From assembly GCA_038503035.1 (NCBI GenBank), contig JAVSML010021635.1, positions 1-64,000 on the forward strand: a stretch of DNA of 64,000 nt. Direction: 5' to 3'. Source of the stretch: Crocodylus rhombifer (Eukaryota > Chordata > Crocodylia > Crocodylidae). Position 1 is the stretch's first letter. Every line of letters begins with the position of its first letter. Positions 38,463-62,440 of this stretch are shown here, one piece after another. A program made the translations under genes and the position numbers. The notes under the pieces were generated by a model. That model did not search any database and was not told where the DNA came from. It saw only the letters and a program-made list of their open reading frames with translations.

Positions 38463-39387
38463 TGAATGTCTAAAGTGGCAAATGTCCATTGTAGACATTA
38501 AGTGCCCCCACACTGGCCATATATTCACACTCAGCTACGTATATGCCAAGAATTTGTTAACCTAAGAAAGGCATGCTAAAACATGTCCATTTGAAAATTT
38601 GAACCTAATACTTCATCAAATGATACAAAATGGGGTTTATATAGGCAACATGTAAAACTTTTACATAACCAGTCACTTCCAACAGAAGCCTAGAGGACAA
38701 AATACCCTGTACTTTGTCAACACATGTGAAAAAGGATATATTTTTAAAACTCAGTGTTTTCCTGTACAAAATTTGGTTTCTGAAGAAATACATAAATTAA
38801 CTGAATTCAAGAGCACAGAAAGTTTCTGATTCTCTAGCACATCATGAGAAGTGAGACTGGGTTCTTATCCTATATCATAGAAATGGAAATACATGTCATC
38901 AGACATTTAAAAGAAATACAATAAGCTTTTAGACATTCATTGAACTTTTCTGAACATCCACTAGCAAGGTTGTTTTATTTGCTACATGGTAGATAAGATG
39001 ATAGTTTTAACTGATCCAGTAGCATTTGGGATTTGTGTTTCTCTAGGATTTGTAGAGTTTTCTTTTACCAGTTGTACAGTCAAAGTACAAATCACAAAGG
39101 CTTTGTTTTTGTAGTTGTCCTGTCAGTACTTGCCAGAGTGTATATTCATTCATTTCAGTCACTAAAGAAGAGACTGATTTATTACCTACAGGAAATGAAA
39201 TGCTTCAGTTGCTGCTTTTTGTCATATTTTGCACATGAGCTATTACTGATGGATGCTGAAAAAGCCAAGAAAGAATGAAAATGGCAATGGAAGGGAGGGT
39301 GACATTTCCTCTCTCTCCATAACAACTTTCCCCTTTCTTCTCCTCATTTGCTTGCATTCCAGTGTTCATAAACTCTCCTGCTCAACA
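38463..39387. other. Unassigned AT-rich sequence
   Basis: No gene or repeat boundary seen. It ends at the 5' truncation point of the CR1 copy that follows. Confidence 0.3.
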
Positions 39388-40560
39388 GTAAAGCTGGCAA
39401 GTCAGTCAGCAGCACTGAAGTCCTTGACTTCAGGAAAGCCGATTTTGACAAGCTAAGGAGGCTTGTCAGTGAGGCCCTAAGGGACCATGACCCCAGGGGG
39501 AGGGGAGTTCAGGAAGAGTGGTTGCTTCTCAAGGGAGCGATCCATAATGCACAAGCTAATTTGATTCCATCTCAGAGGAAAGGCAGCAAGAGGGTACAGC
39601 AGCCCCCCTGGCTCTCCAGGGACCTAGCAGATCTCCTGAGGCTAAAAAGAAAAGAAAAGCTTACAAAGGATGGAGGATGGGATTCACCTCCAAGGAGGAA
39701 TATTCTGCACTGGTCCAGTCCTGCAGGGAGCAAACCAGGAAAGCCAAGGCTGCAACCGAACTCCAACTAGCTCTGAACATCAAGGACAATAAAAAGTCCT
39801 TTTTCAGATATTTGGGGAGCTGGAGGAAATGCAAAGGCAACATTGGACCCCTGCTGAATCAGATGGGACAACTGACGCCCGGGAAAAATCCAGCCTATTA
39901 AATGGGTACTTTGCGTCCGTCTTTCATCAGTCCCATGGGATGCCCATGCACGCTACAGGACAGGGAGTTCTGGGTGAGGGACATCCCTTGCCCTCCATCA
40001 ATGCTGACCTCATAAAGGAACATCTTGAGAGGCTGGATGTCTTCAAGTCAGCTGGCCCTGACAATCTACGCCCCAGGGTACTCAAGGAGCTGGCGAGCAT
40101 CATAGCCCAGCCTCTGGCACAGATCTTTGAGAACTCCTGGCACTCTGGTTTAGTGCCTGAAGACTGGAAGAAGGCCAATGTGGTGCCTATCTTCAAGGAA
40201 GGGAGGAAAGTGGATCCGGCAAACTAAAGGCCCATCAGCCTGACTTCTATCCTGGGGAAGATCTTAGAAAAGTTTATTAAAGAGGCCATCCTTAATGAAC
40301 TGGCCAACGCCAACATCCTGAGGGATAGCCAGCACGGGTTTGTTGCAGGTAGGTCTTGCTTAACCAATCTCATTTCCTTTTATGACCAGGTGACCTATCA
40401 CCTGGACAAGGGAGAAGAGATTGATGTCCTATATCTTGACTTTAAAAAGCCTTCGATCTGGTATCCCATGATCAGCTGACTTCCTGCCCTTTGGGTGGGG
40501 GGCTGGACTCGATGATCTTTCAAGGTCTCTTCCAGTCCTAATGTCTAGGAAATCTATGAA
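39388..40560 (+). mobile_element. CR1 LINE, 5'-truncated with internal deletion
   Basis: Homology to the 56-61 kb CR1 begins at the position equivalent to 58800 and runs through the end of the endonuclease-RT linker and the first half of the RT. At about 40474 it jumps from the equivalent of about 59888 to the 3' UTR (equivalent of about 61002), removing the RT catalytic core and the ORF2 carboxyl domain. It ends in CTATGAA without a long terminal repeat. Identity to the large copy is roughly 85% by eye. Confidence 0.9.
39391..40473 (+). pseudogene. CR1 ORF2 fragment (linker and RT amino part), broken
   Basis: The reading includes the conserved linker ('LDVFKSAGPDNL', 'VLKELASIIAQPL') and RT entry motif ('VVPIFKEGRKVDPAN'). 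Damage visible: an in-frame TAA at 40225-40227 replaces the Tyr codon of the NYRPISL block. Frame changes occur near 39650-39900 (the frames at 39522-39770, 39677-39901 and 39829-40227 each hold a part). A missing base near 40448 lies in the block encoding the first catalytic Asp. The region with the FADD box is deleted. It cannot make an RT. Confidence 0.85.
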
Positions 40561-56436: not shown

Positions 56437-57007
56437 AAACCAGCCTTCCCTGACGGCAGGCCCACTGCGTATGCACGCAGTTTAAAAGGGCCGCCAAACA
56501 GGGAAAAAAAGCTCAGTTAGGCTCCGGAGCGGTAAGAGACATGTGGATGAAGCCCGCTGCGCCCCCACTCCCCCCGAAACCTCCCAGACACCCCCTCAGC
56601 AGCCGCAGAGCCCCCTGCCAACTCCCAGCACAGCCGGAGGTAAGTGGGCTCGTGGTGGGAAGGAGTTAACTCCCTCCTCCCTGGGAGGAGACTGCTGCCT
56701 GGAGCCGGGCCAGGTCAAGCCCCCGCCCAGGCCCCTACTTGTCCCAGCCCCCCAGGGAGCCACGCGACTGGAGCCGCGTGAACAGGCTGCGTAAACAGGC
56801 GCTCGAGTTAGCGTGGAGTTCACACAGGAGAGGGCGTGGGAGGACACGAGACCCTGCCTGCGAACCCCCCAGAGTAGTCAGCCCCAGCCGTAGCCAGCCT
56901 ACCAGAGGCACGACACGGATGGGCATGCGTCGCACCCCGAGGGTCCCCTTGGGCTCTGCAGCCCCCCCCCCTCAGGCACCTCAGAGACGGCCACCCAGAC
57001 GGAGCCC

Positions 57008-58000
57008 ATGCTTCCCGGCTCCATGCAGACGGAGCCCCTGGCTCTTGGCTGCGGTGGCTGCCTGTCCCTTTTTCAGGCTCTGGGGCCCGGGAGCATGGCC
57101 ACCTCCCCTTCCGGGGTCTGCTCCCTACTGGGGTCTCTGGCGCGCCAGCTGGAGGAGCTCCAGGCCACAGTCCAGAGACTGCATGCCTTCACGGACTGCG
57201 AGCAGGAGATAGACTCCTACTGCCAGGCCCTTCTCCCCCGGGAGCCGCAGGGTAGAGCACCGTCTCCCTCCAGGACTAAGGAGGACTCTGGGACCTCCTG
57301 CTCTGCCCAGTCAGGGGCATGGACCAAGGTGGTCAAGGGCCCTAAGGCCCGCCGCACCAAGGCCCCTCCCTCACCGGAGCTTAGCAACAGGTTCGCACCT
57401 CTTGCAGCCCCAGCAGAGCCTGCTCAGTTGCCAGCTCCTGCAGGCAACCCAGGCTCAACCACAGCTACTGGCCCCGCTTTCCCCAAGTCAAAGCGAAAGG
57501 TGTTTGTTGTGGGAGACTCCATCCTGCGGGGGACTGAGGGGGCAATCTGCTGCCCTGACCCCTTAGCCCAGGAAGTCTGCTGCTTCCCGGGGGCCCGCAT
57601 CCAAGACATTGCAGAGAGGATCCCAGAGCTCCTCCGGCCCACAGACCACTACCCCATGCTCCTTATTCATGTGGGCACCAATGACACGGCTTGGAGCACC
57701 CCCAGCCAGGTCATGAGGTGCTACAGGGATTTGCTTAGGGGTCTGGGAGCTCAGGTGGTGTTTTCATCGATCCTCCCAGTCTCGGGCTATGGGCTGAGGA
57801 GGGAGAGGAGGATCCACGCAGTGAACCAAAGACTGCAGAGCTGGTGTCATCGGGAAGGCTTTGGCTTCCATGACCACAGCCCGCTCTTTGGAGAGAGAGG
57901 CAGCGAGCTGCTGGGAAGAGATGGCCTCCACCTCTCCCCCCTGGGGAGGAGGCTCTTCTCAGCCAGGCTGGCTGACCTGCTCCACCGGGCTTTAAACTAA
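57008..58000 (+). CDS. CR1 ORF1 protein with SGNH hydrolase (esterase) domain
   Basis: Intact 330-aa frame. ATG at 57008 is the first in-frame ATG after a stop at 56891. Residues 1-80 carry a short hydrophobic/Cys-containing stretch and a helical segment (about 43-75, LARQLEELQATVQRLHA, then DCEQEIDSYCQALL) of the kind preceding the esterase in CR1 ORF1. Residues 80-160 are a Pro/Ser/Lys-rich linker. Residues 163-330 form the SGNH domain with all four blocks visible: VVGDSILRG (Ser171), CFPGARIQD (Gly195), HVGTNDT (Asn225) and DGLHLS (Asp305, His308). In the family, ORF1 proteins bind the element RNA; the esterase may act on lipid or acetyl esters, but its role is not settled. The last sense codons are TTA AAC before TAA, forming the slippery site. 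The 10-base C run at 56962-56971, upstream of the start, could hide a frameshift from a longer amino end. Confidence 0.9.
   Translation: MLPGSMQTEPLALGCGGCLSLFQALGPGSMATSPSGVCSLLGSLARQLEELQATVQRLHAFTDCEQEIDSYCQALLPREPQGRAPSPSRTKEDSGTSCSAQSGAWTKVVKGPKARRTKAPPSPELSNRFAPLAAPAEPAQLPAPAGNPGSTTATGPAFPKSKRKVFVVGDSILRGTEGAICCPDPLAQEVCCFPGARIQDIAERIPELLRPTDHYPMLLIHVGTNDTAWSTPSQVMRCYRDLLRGLGAQVVFSSILPVSGYGLRRERRIHAVNQRLQSWCHREGFGFHDHSPLFGERGSELLGRDGLHLSPLGRRLFSARLADLLHRALN
57991..57997 (+). promoter_or_regulatory. Candidate -1 ribosomal frameshift heptamer T TTA AAC
   Basis: In the ORF1 frame the last codons read GCT TTA AAC TAA, which gives X-XXY-YYZ phasing of UUUAAAC, one of the most efficient known eukaryotic -1 slippery heptamers. 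Shifting back one base puts ribosomes on TTT AAA and then CTA AGC, the ORF2 frame. That frame is open from 57976 (after a TGA at 57973-57975) to 60132, so the two frames overlap for only 25 bases and the heptamer lies inside the overlap. The expected product is an ORF1-linker-ORF2 fusion. Function is inferred from architecture and not tested. Confidence 0.65.
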
Positions 58001-58002
58001 GC

Positions 58003-58067
58003 CTGCTGGGGGATGGGGGGAATACTGCCACTGCTGGCCTGCTGAGCAACCCTTGCAAAGCCAGCAG
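58003..58067 (+). promoter_or_regulatory. Candidate frameshift-stimulating RNA structure
   Basis: CTGCTGG (58003-58009) starts 5 bases after the heptamer and can pair with CCAGCAG (58061-58067), 7 bp. Alternatively CTGCTGGC (58031-58038) pairs perfectly with GCCAGCAG (58060-58067), 8 bp, enclosing a small GCAA/TTGC stem (58046-58049 with 58053-58056). Two G runs (58008-58012 and 58015-58020) lie in between. Spacing of 5-9 bases is typical for stimulators. The fold was found by eye only. Confidence 0.4.
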
Positions 58068-58116
58068 ACCAAGGCACTTAAGGGATCCCACCCCTGCCCC
58101 AGCCCTGGCACAATCT

Positions 58117-60132
58117 GTGGGCAAGGCAAGAGCCCCCAAGGGGATACTTGCCTGCCTGTACACTAATGCCAGGAGCCTGGGCAACAAGCAGGATGAGCTC
58201 ATCCTCCTGCTCAGTGCTAAGAATTATGATGTCATTGGGATAACGGAGACCTGGTGGGACTCCACCCATGACTGGAGCATGGGTATAGAGGGCTATACCC
58301 TGTACAGGAGGGATCGTGTTGACAAAAGGGGTGGGGGTGTAGCTCTCTATGTGAAGGAAAGTTACATGTCCCTGCAAGCTGATGTTGGCAACTGGCATGG
58401 ACAGCTAGAGACCCTCTGGGTAAAAATTTGTGGGGAATACGGCACAGGGGACACAACGGTGGGAGTCTACTACAGACCTCCCACTCAAAGTCCTGAGCTT
58501 GACCAGAAGCTCGCCCGGGAACTGACTGGGGCCACTTGCTCCAGGACCTTGGTTGTCATGGGTGACTTCAATTACTCGGACATCTCGTGGGAAGATCACT
58601 CAGCAAAATCCGAGCGGTCGCAAAGCTTTCTCTCGTGCGTGGATGACCTCTACCTGACTCAAGAAGTCTATGGGCCAATAAGAGGCAAAGCACTGCTTGA
58701 CCTGGTACTGGCTATGGGGGACGACCTAATCGGCGACCTAGTGATCGATGGGAAGCTGGGTGACAGCGACCACGAGCTGATCACCTTCACCATCCGCCAT
58801 AAAGCTGGCAAGTCAGTCAGCAACACAGAAGTCCTTGACTTCAGAAAAGCTGACTTTGACAAGCTCAAGAAGCTTGTTGGTCATGCCCTCAGGGACCATG
58901 ACCCCAGGGAGATGGGAGTTCGAGAAGAGTGGTTGCTTCTCAAGGAAGCAATCCTCAATGCACAAGCTAAATCTATTCCAACACGGAGGAAAGGCAGCAA
59001 GAAGGCACAGCAGCCCTCCTGGCTCTCCAGGGACCTAGCGGACCTCCTGTGGCTAAAACGGAAAGCCTACAAAGGATGGAGGACAGGATTAACCTCCAAG
59101 GAGGTTTATTCTGCACTGGTCCGGTCCTGCAGGGTGCAAACCAGGAAAGCCAAGGCTGCAACTGAACTCCAACTAGCTTCAAGCATCAAGGACAACAAAA
59201 AGTCCTTTTTCAGATATGTGGGGAGCCGGAGGAAAAGCAAGGGCAGCATTGGACCCCTGCTAAACCAGATGGGGCAACTGACAACTGATGCCCAGGAAAA
59301 AGCCAACCTATTAAATGGGTACTTTGCATCAGTCTTTCATCAGTCCCATGGGACATCCATGCCTGCTATGGGACAGGGAGATCCGGGTGATGGGGATCCA
59401 ATACCCTCCATAAATCCTGACCTCATGAAGGAACATCTTGAGAAGCTGGATACCTTCAAGTCAGCCGGCCCTGACAATCTGCACTCCAGGGTACTCAAGG
59501 AGCTGGCGAGCATCATAGCCCAGCCCCTGGCATGGATCTTTGAAAACTCCTGGCGCTCTGGTGTAGTGCCCGAAGACTGGAAGAAGGCCAATGTGGTGCC
59601 GATCTTCAAGAAAGGGAGGAGAGTGGATCCGGCTAACTACAGGCCCATTAGCCTGGCTTCTATCCTGGGGAAGATCTTAGAAAAGTTTATTAAGGAGGCC
59701 ATCCTTGAGGGACTGGCTCAGGCTAACATTCTAAGGGATAGCCAGCATGGGTTTGTTGCACGTAGGTCTTGTTTGACCAATCTCATTTCCTTCTATGACC
59801 AGGTGACCTATCACCTGGACCAGGGAGAAGAGATTGATGTCATATATCTTGACTTCAAAAAAGCTTTTGATCTGGTATCCCATGATCATCTCTTGGCCAA
59901 ACAGGCCAGTTGTGGCCTTGGCTTCACCACGATCTGCTGGCTGGGAAATTGGCTCCGTGGTCAGACCCAGAGGGTTGTAATTGATGGCAGTGACTCATCG
60001 TGGTGCCCTGTGACCAGTGGGGTCCCTCAAGGCTCTGTCCTTGGTCAGCCTGGATCACCCGCCTATCTTCTGGCATGGATGCTTTGCCCCAAAGTTTGGT
60101 GTCATCGGCGAACTTGGCCAGTCCACTCCTGA
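58117..60132 (+). pseudogene. CR1 ORF2 (endonuclease-RT), interrupted in the RT core
   Basis: The frame is open from 57976 to 60132. Position 58117 is a GTG and not a credible start; the first ATG codon is residue 55 (58279), inside the endonuclease. Counted from 58117, residues 10-230 are an APE-type endonuclease with TNARS (Asn17), ITETWW (Glu44), YYRPP, GDFN (Asp150, Asn152) and SDHE (Asp218, His219). Residues 449-643 are RT: SAGPDNL, NYRPISL, HGFVARRSCLTNL, IYLDFKKAFDLVSHD (first catalytic Asp, 579) and SGVPQGSVLG. After residue 643 the sequence jumps into antisense material and stops at 60132 before the FADD box. The endonuclease nicks target DNA and the RT copies element RNA in the nucleus. 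Here the EN looks intact but the RT is incomplete. Confidence 0.9.
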
Positions 60133-60264
60133 CTCCAATGTCCACATCATTAATGTTGAACAGTACGGGTCCAAGGACAGAGCCTTGAGGGACCCCACTG
60201 GTCACAGGGCACCACGATGAGTGACTGCCATCAATTACAACCCTCTGGGTCTGACCACAGAGCC
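59951..60264. repeat. 94-bp inverted repeat inside the CR1 RT domain
   Basis: The left arm 59951-60044 (sense strand, encoding LRGQTQRVVIDG to VPQGSVLG) and the right arm 60171-60264 (its complement) are both 94 bases long and differ at two positions that I can see. The loop is 126 bases. The arms are far more alike than separate CR1 copies in this window, so the duplication is recent or arose on insertion. Confidence 0.85.
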
Positions 60265-60371
60265 TATAAGGATGCTGCAGGTTTTTCCTCCCAAGGTGGA
60301 GAACCTTGCATTTTTCAGTGTTAAACACCATCGGGTTCTCGTCTGCCCATTTGCTGAGCTTGTCCAGGCTC
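60045..60371 (-). pseudogene. Antisense RT-core patch of CR1 ORF2
   Basis: On the minus strand this segment encodes the parts missing from the sense ORF. 60371 down to about 60265 gives LDKLSKWADENPMVFNTEKC and on to HPYRL. 60264-60171 repeats GQTQRVVIDGS to VPQGSVLG. 60170-60045 gives PVLFNINDVDIGVRSGLAKF followed by ADDTKLWGK. The catalytic FADD box lies at 60101-60112. The order is therefore later part first, then the duplicated block and the catalytic part. A 242-codon minus frame (59924-60652) runs through it but is an accident of the rearrangement. FNINDVD is two residues shorter than the usual FNIFINDLD form of this family. Confidence 0.85.
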
Positions 60372-60998
60372 GGCAGTGCTACGTTGGATAGCACTACAGA
60401 AAAAAGAGACTTGGGGGTCATCATTGACCACAAGATGAACATGAGCCTGCAATGTGATGCTGCGGCTAGTAAAGCGACCAAAACGCTGGCTTGCATCCAT
60501 AGATGCTTCTCGAGCAAATCCCGGGACGTCGTTCTCCCCTTGTACTCGGCCTTGGTGAGGCTGCAGCTGGAGTACTGCATCCAGTTTTGGGCTCCACAAT
60601 TCAAAAAGGATGTGGAGAAGCTTGAGAGAGTCCAGAGGAGAGCCACGCGCATGATCGGAGGTCAGGAAAACAGATCTTACGATGATAGGCTGAGAGACAT
60701 GGGACTCTTTAGCCTGGAAAAGCATAGGCTCAGGGGTGATCTGATGGCCACCTATAAGTTATTCAGGTGTGACCACCAGGATCTGAGGGAACGTTTGTTC
60801 ACCAGAGTGCCCCAAGGGATGACAAGGTCGAACGGTCACAAACTCCTGCAAGACCATTTCAGGCTGGACATAAGGAAGAATTTCTTTACTGTCCGAGCCC
60901 CCAAGGTCTGGAACAGTCTGCCAGCGGAGGTGGTTCAAGCGCCTACATTGAACACCTTCAAGAGTAAATTGGATGCTTATCTTGCTGGGATCCTATGA
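60372..60998 (+). pseudogene. CR1 ORF2 carboxyl domain, cut off from its RT
   Basis: The sense reading resumes at 60372 (GSATLDSTTEKRDLGVIIDH) and runs without a stop to 60996-60998. It includes blocks diagnostic of CR1: LVRLQLEYCIQFWAP, LERVQRRATRMIGG, GLFSLEKHRLRGDL, FRLDIRKNFFTVRAPKVWN and SLPAEVVQAPTLNTFKSKLD. An ATG at 60306 opens the frame, but its first 20 or so codons are antisense patch. The domain is thought to help RNA and target recognition in this clade; that is inference. Confidence 0.9.
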
Positions 60999-61072
60999 CC
61001 CCAGCTGACTTCCTGCCCTTTGGGCAGGGGGCTGGACTCGATGATCTCCCGAGGTCCCTTCCAGCCCTGATG

Positions 61073-61099
61073 TCTATGAAATCTATGAAATCTATGAAT
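61073..61099 (+). repeat. CR1 3' terminal repeat (TCTATGAAA)3
   Basis: Three 9-base units TCTATGAAA, TCTATGAAA, TCTATGAAT end the element. CR1 elements end in short tandem repeats that help prime reverse transcription. The older copy at 29728 ends in an ATTCTATG-type repeat instead. Confidence 0.85.
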
Positions 61100-62440
61100 C
61101 TCCCAGTTCCTCGGTTAATCGGCTCCTTTCAGTCTCTTAAGGATCAAAAATCAAATAGATAGCAAACCAAAGTAAATGAAATCCAAACCTCCCAGGTTCC
61201 AGAGTTAATCAATTCAGGCTGGTCCCAGCTCTCATTGACTCCGCTGCTTTAATCTTCGTCCAGCCATCCTCGGGAGATTCTCTTCATTGGCACACCCCAA
61301 AGCTCATCAGTGGTCCTTCAACCACTCAGACCAGTGAATCTGCTGCCCTTACCAGCAGGTGGCCATGGGACACTGTCAGCAGAGGAGGTCTCCAGTGTCA
61401 CCTCAATACACCAGATATGGTCCCTCTCTGGCTGCCCCTCTCTGGGGTCAGAAATACCTTCCTGAATCTTCTTCCCACCTATCCACAGGGAGCACATGCT
61501 GTGGAAACATGGCAACGTGTTCCCCGCTCCAGCCAGGCCTCTTGGTATATCTGAAGCAAGTGTTCTCCACATGGGTCTTTTGGGGCTTGTTTCTTGCCCC
61601 ACTCTTCTCCCCTCTGTAAAAGAGAACAAGAACACAGGGGAAAACTCACTGTAGGGAAAGAGGAACCTGTAAAGGGAGAGATGTCAACAACAACAAGATT
61701 AGGAGTGCCCTGGGAGTTGCTGTTTTGGAGCAGCTGCTTTGTCTGGCTAGAGTGGCCTCAGGGAAAGGAGAGGACAATGCATGTGCCAGAAAGGAGACTG
61801 AATGGAGAGCCAGGGAGTGGAGAAGTACATCCCAGCACAGGAGATGTTAGGTGGGACCCTCCCAGTCCCAAGGAGCTGGCAGGGAGCTGGAAAGAGAGCT
61901 CCAGAGAGCAATATTGAGGCCAGGAGACACTGGCAGTAAGGATGCCCCAAGGCAAAGTAGCACGAGCAGCAGGGGACTCCATCAGAGATGCGCTGGCCTT
62001 GAAACAAGCGGCCAGGCCCTAAACAACTGTTTAACTCTTTTAAAAGATTTTTCTGTTGCTTTATTCAACCTGGGCAGGCAAGGGAAGGGTGCCAGTCTGG
62101 CAGCAACCCTCCTGAGGAGACTAGGGAGAGTGAATGACTGATCTGGTCAGTTACCCCCAAGAACCCCAGGGAAATTTTTGTTTCTGTGAATTTGATGATT
62201 TTCATGTATTTATTTTTGTTTATCCTGGAAGGGGCATGCAACCCCTCTATGTGGGAGCAGTGGCACAGAATTAACATATTACCTGTGAGACTTACCTGTG
62301 ACTGAGAGAAAGTCCAGGAGTCTGCACTATTTCATTCTGTCAAAACTGTCAGTAGAGATGCTCATGAGCCTATAAGAGAAAAAGAAAATACAATAAAGAG
62401 AACAGATACAGATTGCTCAGAAAGACCTATGAGTGTGAGC
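61100..62440. other. Unassigned moderately GC-rich sequence 3' of the CR1
   Basis: 'CTCCCAGTTCCTCGGTTAATC' near 61098 and 'CTCCCAGGTTCCAGAGTTAATC' near 61189 form a diverged direct repeat. 61640-62130 is purine-rich with short frames of no recognisable family. It may be a transposon fragment, but I see no terminal repeat, primer-binding site or protein motif. Confidence 0.3.

Follow-up and report, generated by a model that had tools for sequence, protein, structure and literature searches.

A conserved slippery heptamer at the ORF1-ORF2 junction of crocodilian CR1 retrotransposons suggests a -1 frameshift route to the endonuclease-reverse transcriptase

The window (the whole 64-kb stretch of Crocodylus rhombifer DNA that was analysed) contains a near full-length CR1 copy at ~56.9-61.1 kb, with the following features.

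56894..58000, plus strand: CR1 ORF1 frame, 368 codons, SGNH/GDSL esterase, ending ..ADLLHRALN-stop (ORF list)
57976..60045, plus strand: CR1 ORF2, -1 frame, coding for the endonuclease and the initial part of the reverse transcriptase (ORF list, Pfam, CR1 homology)
57991..57997, plus strand: putative slippery heptamer U UUA AAC, in ORF1 phase (sequence; common to other copies)
57998..58000, plus strand: ORF1 stop UAA, abutting the heptamer (sequence)
57998..58112, plus strand: candidate stimulatory RNA structure, G-rich right after the site, without covariation support
58165..58281, plus strand: endonuclease motifs, NARS at 58165 and ETWW at 58246, followed by the earliest ORF2 ATG in frame (58279-58281)
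60044..60406, minus strand: inverted internal CR1 piece interrupting ORF2 (CR1 homology)
60270..60998, plus strand: CR1 ORF2 3' end in direct orientation (ORF list, CR1 homology)

The ORF1 product matches the Pfam family Lipase_GDSL_2 (E 3.7e-12) and is 84% identical to the Alligator protein P0121. The best solved-structure match to the ORF1 family profile is the ORF1-encoded protein 4c1b (E 1.9e-36), which we take to be the ZfL2-1 ORF1 protein. ORF2 carries the Pfam domains RVT_1, Exo_endo_phos, and Exo_endo_phos_2, and part of it is 86% identical to the Alligator protein P0067. Its best named matches are turtle, bird, crocodilian, and lizard proteins, and we presume from these matches that their clade is CR1. 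An ORF2 with an APE-type endonuclease and reverse transcriptase (RT), preceded by an esterase ORF1, classifies the window element as a non-LTR retrotransposon of the CR1 clade. CR1 ORF2 sequence is also present in two gene models that bear host protein names, P0184 (crane nucleobindin-2) and P0067 (Alligator cyclic GMP-AMP synthase isoform), which are probably annotation chimeras or cases of exonisation.

The window copy is rearranged, and its ORF2 is broken at ~60.04 kb. CR1 homology in the ORF2 frame stops near 60042-60045, where the inverted piece follows; the stop at 60132 is therefore not the natural ORF2 stop. The initial annotation had described the -1 frame as open to 60132, and there is indeed no stop from 57976 to that position, but the end that it gave belongs to the rearranged copy. 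An upstream ATG at 56919 lies in a frame different from that of the long ORF1, suggesting to us that the N-terminus of ORF1 has been shifted in this copy. Toward the 3' end of the element, a ATCTATGAA-like run is visible by eye at ~61070-61100, a candidate for the short terminal repeat of the CR1 clade. A second CR1 fragment in the window, at 39372-40529, comprises ORF2 only, and its best segment has 84% protein identity to the copy studied here. An Rfam scan of the 64-kb window returned no match.

The 3' end of ORF1 reads GCT TTA AAC TAA (57989-58000), exactly as initially annotated, with the stop codon at 57998-58000. The -1 frame is closed by a TGA at 57973-57975 and overlaps ORF1 by 25 nt, and the overlap contains T TTA AAC at 57991-57997, in agreement with the earlier description of a 25-base overlap with a phased heptamer. 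The window thus has an X-XXY-YYZ heptamer in the upstream phase inside a -1 overlap, the arrangement of a -1 frameshift site, whereas stop-codon readthrough would require ORF2 to share the frame of ORF1. UUUAAAC is the frameshift site of coronaviruses. The heptamer is the only phased X-XXY-YYZ sequence across the 368 codons of the window ORF1 frame, and a phased heptamer arose within the overlap in 83 of 20000 codon-order shuffles and in 284 of 20000 synonymous shuffles. Its leucine codon, TTA, accounts for just 2 of the 42 Leu codons in ORF1.

The first in-frame ATG of the window ORF2 lies at 58279, downstream of both the NARS and ETWW motifs, and the ATG at 58013 shares the frame of ORF1, where it opens only 10 codons; both points had been made in the initial annotation and hold in the window. 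No stop-start overlap or adjacency of the UAAUG or AUGA type, as used in termination-reinitiation, is present at the junction, there being no ORF2-frame ATG until 58279. The first in-frame CUG codons of ORF2 are at 58003 and 58006. In bird, turtle, and lizard ORF2s an in-frame Met precedes the endonuclease, at ~31 codons past the slip site in lizard P0032 and ~82 in stork P0046 (hand count).

A search of the same genome gave 3351 first-look candidates for the window junction, of which 40, window included, were scored. The 39 other copies are young and were selected by similarity; what they establish is that the window has its subfamily's sequence, and they are not a measure of constraint. GCTTTAAACTAA is intact in all 40 (the 40 scored among 3351), and the ten heptamer and stop columns contain 0 changes, against a mean of 0.59 changed rows per column. 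The ORF2 frame is open over the 218-225 nt read in 40/40 of the young copies listed, and 38 of them have no in-frame Met over that stretch; the ORF1 end of two copies (L069 and L071) does not keep phase over the sequence read. The absence of an ORF2 ATG, regarded initially as a possible conserved trait, therefore holds in 38/40 young crocodilian copies up to 58200 but not in birds, lizards, and turtles.

Conservation of the junction anatomy is seen at the DNA level across diverged crocodilian copies. Twenty 10-kb contig ends were examined (L029 and L031 are nearly all N, and L016 is partly N), and five exact GCTTTAAACTA sites were first seen in them. Searches that were independent of the heptamer, run with the ends of ORF1 and the starts of the endonuclease, recovered these five junctions again and in addition L022, which was not counted because a deletion removed its junction. 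The six junctions, window included, are 48-86% identical in pairwise comparison, and GCTTTAAACTA followed by A or G is kept in all six; the ORF1 stop is UAA in four and UAG in two. In every one of the six, the ORF1 phase ends in LN-stop and the ORF2 frame gives FKL. The codons GCT TTA AAC are present in 6/6 despite up to ~50% divergence, and GGCTTTAAACTA, invariant in 6/6, is the longest invariant run (12 nt; the next is 5 nt). A 12-nt run came up in 4 of 100000 column shuffles; with the 183 columns around the junction, none of 100000 reached it. Conservation of the heptamer beyond its surroundings is apparent over the six junctions and is not visible within the window's own subfamily alone, where the invariant run among four copies is one of three of length 14; the signal therefore rests on the distant copies L016r and L020r. 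ORF2 is open through the entire stretch read only in the window and L020r. The first ORF2 AUG is past endonuclease motif I in four of the six junctions; in the other two it lies before motif I but after an in-frame stop. A further pattern search (GCN-YTN-AAY, 64 variants) was spaced one N too short between its flanking codons and sampled an odd subset of sites; GCTTTAAAC was present in 37 of its 51 matches (34 distinct upstream sequences), with 0 in the reversed-pattern control. Aligning the junctions of other copies had been proposed at the outset as a check on the frameshift claim, and the alignment comes out in its favour: the heptamer, the adjacent UAR stop, and the -1 ORF2 frame are common to crocodilian CR1 copies of different subfamilies.

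Proteins extend this check beyond crocodilians. The ORF1 homologs, by their source names, include Alligator, four turtles, two lizards, a snake, a frog, and a stingray. LN stands at the stop in 20 of the 30 homologs (ALN in 17) and in 19 of the 22 top-scoring ones, and 10/30 matches lack the LN end. The three non-LN proteins among the top 22 (P0138, P0139, and P0142) stop short of the end or diverge there, and their ends were probably altered by gene-model splicing. In the ORF2 frame, 33 of 36 bird stretches contain FKL, 30 of the 33 coming from one stork genome and one each from ibis, duck, and crane; the exceptions are a weak godwit match that reads LKL and two stork proteins without the motif. 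The lizard protein P0032 also has FKL in the ORF2 frame. ALN-stop overlaid with [GS]FKL fixes TTTAAAY. The heptamer, stop, and -1 frame are thus implied by LN at the ORF1 stop in turtles, squamates, frog, and ray, and by FKL in the ORF2 frame in birds and the lizard; the bird evidence comes from ORF2 alone, as bird ORF1 ends were not found. The openness of these frames is not counted, since protein models favour open frames. An alignment (A2) with L-N invariant in 15/15 was discounted, its 14 of 30 homologs having been picked after the ends had been seen. A more distant GDSL esterase ORF, P0144 (181 aa), has YLN at its stop, which would fit the presence of this heptamer beyond close CR1 relatives.

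The candidate stems that had been annotated as starting 5 bases downstream of the site fared less well. The 113 nt after the heptamer in the window fold with a z of -2.17, and 6 of 200 shuffles were as good; the 100-nt fold after the site ranks 69th of 338 within the element (99th of 338 after GC correction). The fold energies of the six junctions span -26 to -54 kcal/mol, and in a consensus fold built from four copies the covariation term was unfavourable (+1.19), with 3 of 30 pairs compensated. Sliding folds, the six single folds, and the four-copy consensus fold gave no support for a conserved downstream stem, and we do not accept one. The adjacent stop and the G-rich stretch are only candidates for stimulators.

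We also compared more distant LINEs. For relatives from genome contigs, one search gave none and another gave three (L001-L003). Viral contigs contained none apart from one distant RT (L004, 25% identity), which was not used; no relative was matched among phage records, and plasmid records gave one 25% match. L001, on a contig in a Bathyarchaeota bin, has 37% identity to the window ORF2, and we take it to be contaminating animal DNA. Its esterase ORF1 ends CG[T TTT TTA] GTG TAA, with ORF2 at -1. This heptamer, U UUU UUA, is the HIV-1 frameshift site (PMC4373837). It is the only phased heptamer in the 163 codons of the L001 ORF1, and its occurrence by chance (785 of 20000 codon-order shuffles and 1205 of 20000 synonymous shuffles) is less unlikely than that of the window heptamer. 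An in-frame ORF2 ATG lies at 522, and a local hairpin (z -1.19) was discounted as evidence. This distant element thus has a phased heptamer of another kind, likewise with ORF2 at -1.

Five further LINEs come from Poribacteria bins or the same phylum and would be sponge DNA. All five have ORF1 and ORF2 in one frame, separated by just one UGA codon; the next codon is CUA in four of them and CUC in the fifth. The UGA codons are placed as follows.

L002, 1475-1477: UGA between ORF1 and ORF2
L003, 1228-1230: UGA between ORF1 and ORF2
L008, 3295-3297, minus strand: UGA between ORF1 and ORF2
L009, 1088-1090: UGA between ORF1 and ORF2
L011, 1438-1440: UGA between ORF1 and ORF2

The L011 junction was read by eye and the others by script. 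The endonuclease motif starts 6-11 codons past the UGA in four of these LINEs, and the first ORF2 Met is at codon 274 in L002 and codon 116 in L003. L002 and L003 share 51% identity in ORF2 and 43% in ORF1, and L008, L009, and L011 are 39-51% identical to L003. UGA-CUA is a leaky stop context in viral and cellular readthrough, and the single UGA followed by CUA or CUC looks like a stop-codon readthrough site. L002 ORF1 (2-1474) also contains a 2A-like motif, GDVEVNPGP, after a leucine-rich stretch.

The most economical account of the vertebrate junction is -1 frameshifting that yields an ORF1-ORF2 fusion, and we consider it likely that CR1 of this lineage makes its endonuclease-RT in this way by programmed slippage. 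The fusion of the esterase ORF1 to ORF2, proposed in the initial annotation, is supported by the conserved heptamer, stop, and -1 frame; the same site in birds, squamates, turtles, and frog is suggested by their proteins, and the slippage event, its rate, and its stimulator are what we infer from the anatomy. On reaching the end of ORF1, ribosomes would meet U UUA AAC immediately before the stop codon. The majority would terminate and release the esterase protein, whereas a minority would slip one base back to UUU AAA and continue into ORF2, so that ORF1 protein and fusion would be made at a fixed ratio, like Gag and Gag-Pol.

It is unlikely, though worth weighing, that ORF2 is started separately just past the ORF1 stop, by termination-reinitiation or independently of AUG, a mode proposed for L1 and reported for SART1, with the heptamer being incidental or a coding feature of ORF1. 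Reinitiation is the route described for other LINEs (PMC5972666). The CUG codons at 58003 and 58006 could serve such a start, and the Met ahead of the endonuclease makes ORF2 initiation possible in birds, turtles, and lizards. However, a separate start leaves unexplained both the common -1 phase and the heptamer as the longest invariant run; a UAAUG overlap is lacking, the ATG at 58013, though close by, opens the wrong frame, and the first AUG of the six crocodilian junctions falls either past motif I (four) or after an in-frame stop (two). It is quite improbable that the terminal Ala-Leu-Asn of ORF1 is kept for the function of the esterase protein, with the nucleotides merely following. The frequency of LN and ALN at the ORF1 stop (20 and 17 of 30) agrees with this reading, but it predicts codon variation, yet GCT TTA AAC is found in 6/6 junctions and TTA is rare among the ORF1 Leu codons; the FKL in the ORF2 frame of several bird lineages and a lizard also speaks against it. 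Least probable of all, and very doubtful, is that ORF2 becomes joined to other exons, either by splicing of CR1 transcripts or by read-in from external sequence, and that ribosomes do not use the junction. In many database gene models, unrelated upstream sequence does run into the ORF2 frame close to the site, but we read these models as automatic, as they have different upstream exons for each copy; moreover, a spliced RNA would not transpose as intact CR1, and splicing does not require the heptamer.

Returning to frameshifting, a broader proposal, which we hold to be evenly balanced, is that Gag-Pol-like recoding is the general way of joining ORF1 to ORF2 in CR1/L2 LINEs, by U UUA AAC in vertebrates, by U UUU UUA in another animal lineage, and by UGA-CUA readthrough in the LINEs from Poribacteria bins; the type of recoding would change while the fusion is kept. 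There is no agreed account of ORF2 translation in LINEs, and CR1 is one of the major repeats in birds and reptiles. A functional frameshift site at the junction would set a fixed ratio of ORF1 to ORF1-ORF2 protein in CR1, and the endonuclease-RT would bear an N-terminal esterase, so that the particle would be pictured differently. CR1 copies might in that case make up a very abundant class of frameshift sites in vertebrate genomes, given 3351 first-look candidates in the genome of the window, 40 of them scored.

The window CR1 can be compared with several known systems. SART1 and L1 are similar in that the second LINE ORF is reached on a bicistronic RNA (PMC5972666); their ORF2 is a separate product started near the stop or at an AUG, whereas a fusion is what the CR1 anatomy suggests. 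HeT-A of Drosophila telomeres is, like CR1, a non-LTR element, and its gag gene needs a frameshift, but unlike CR1 it encodes no reverse transcriptase of its own (PMC5009743, in the portion available, which makes no mention of CR1). ZfL2-1 and other esterase-type CR1/L2 LINEs have an ORF1 esterase of the same family as the window ORF1, and the accessible part of PMC3905857 does not discuss ORF2 translation. Frameshifting at -1 and CR1 are each known; their combination was not found in the literature searched, partly as excerpts, and an earlier mention in the 1997 or 2003 CR1 papers is possible. The LINEs from Poribacteria bins share the UGA-CUA readthrough context in four of five cases, with UGA-CUC in the fifth, but they are only distant relatives of the window CR1, and their readthrough is predicted from sequence. 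Compared with retroviruses and coronaviruses, CR1 is a non-LTR retrotransposon in which no conserved stem or pseudoknot was found and frameshifting is predicted from the nucleotide and protein sequences. It nevertheless resembles retroviral gag-pol and coronavirus ORF1a/1b in the type and phase of the heptamer and in the -1 overlap, and, in the crocodilian copies, in having an enzyme-bearing downstream ORF without an AUG of its own.
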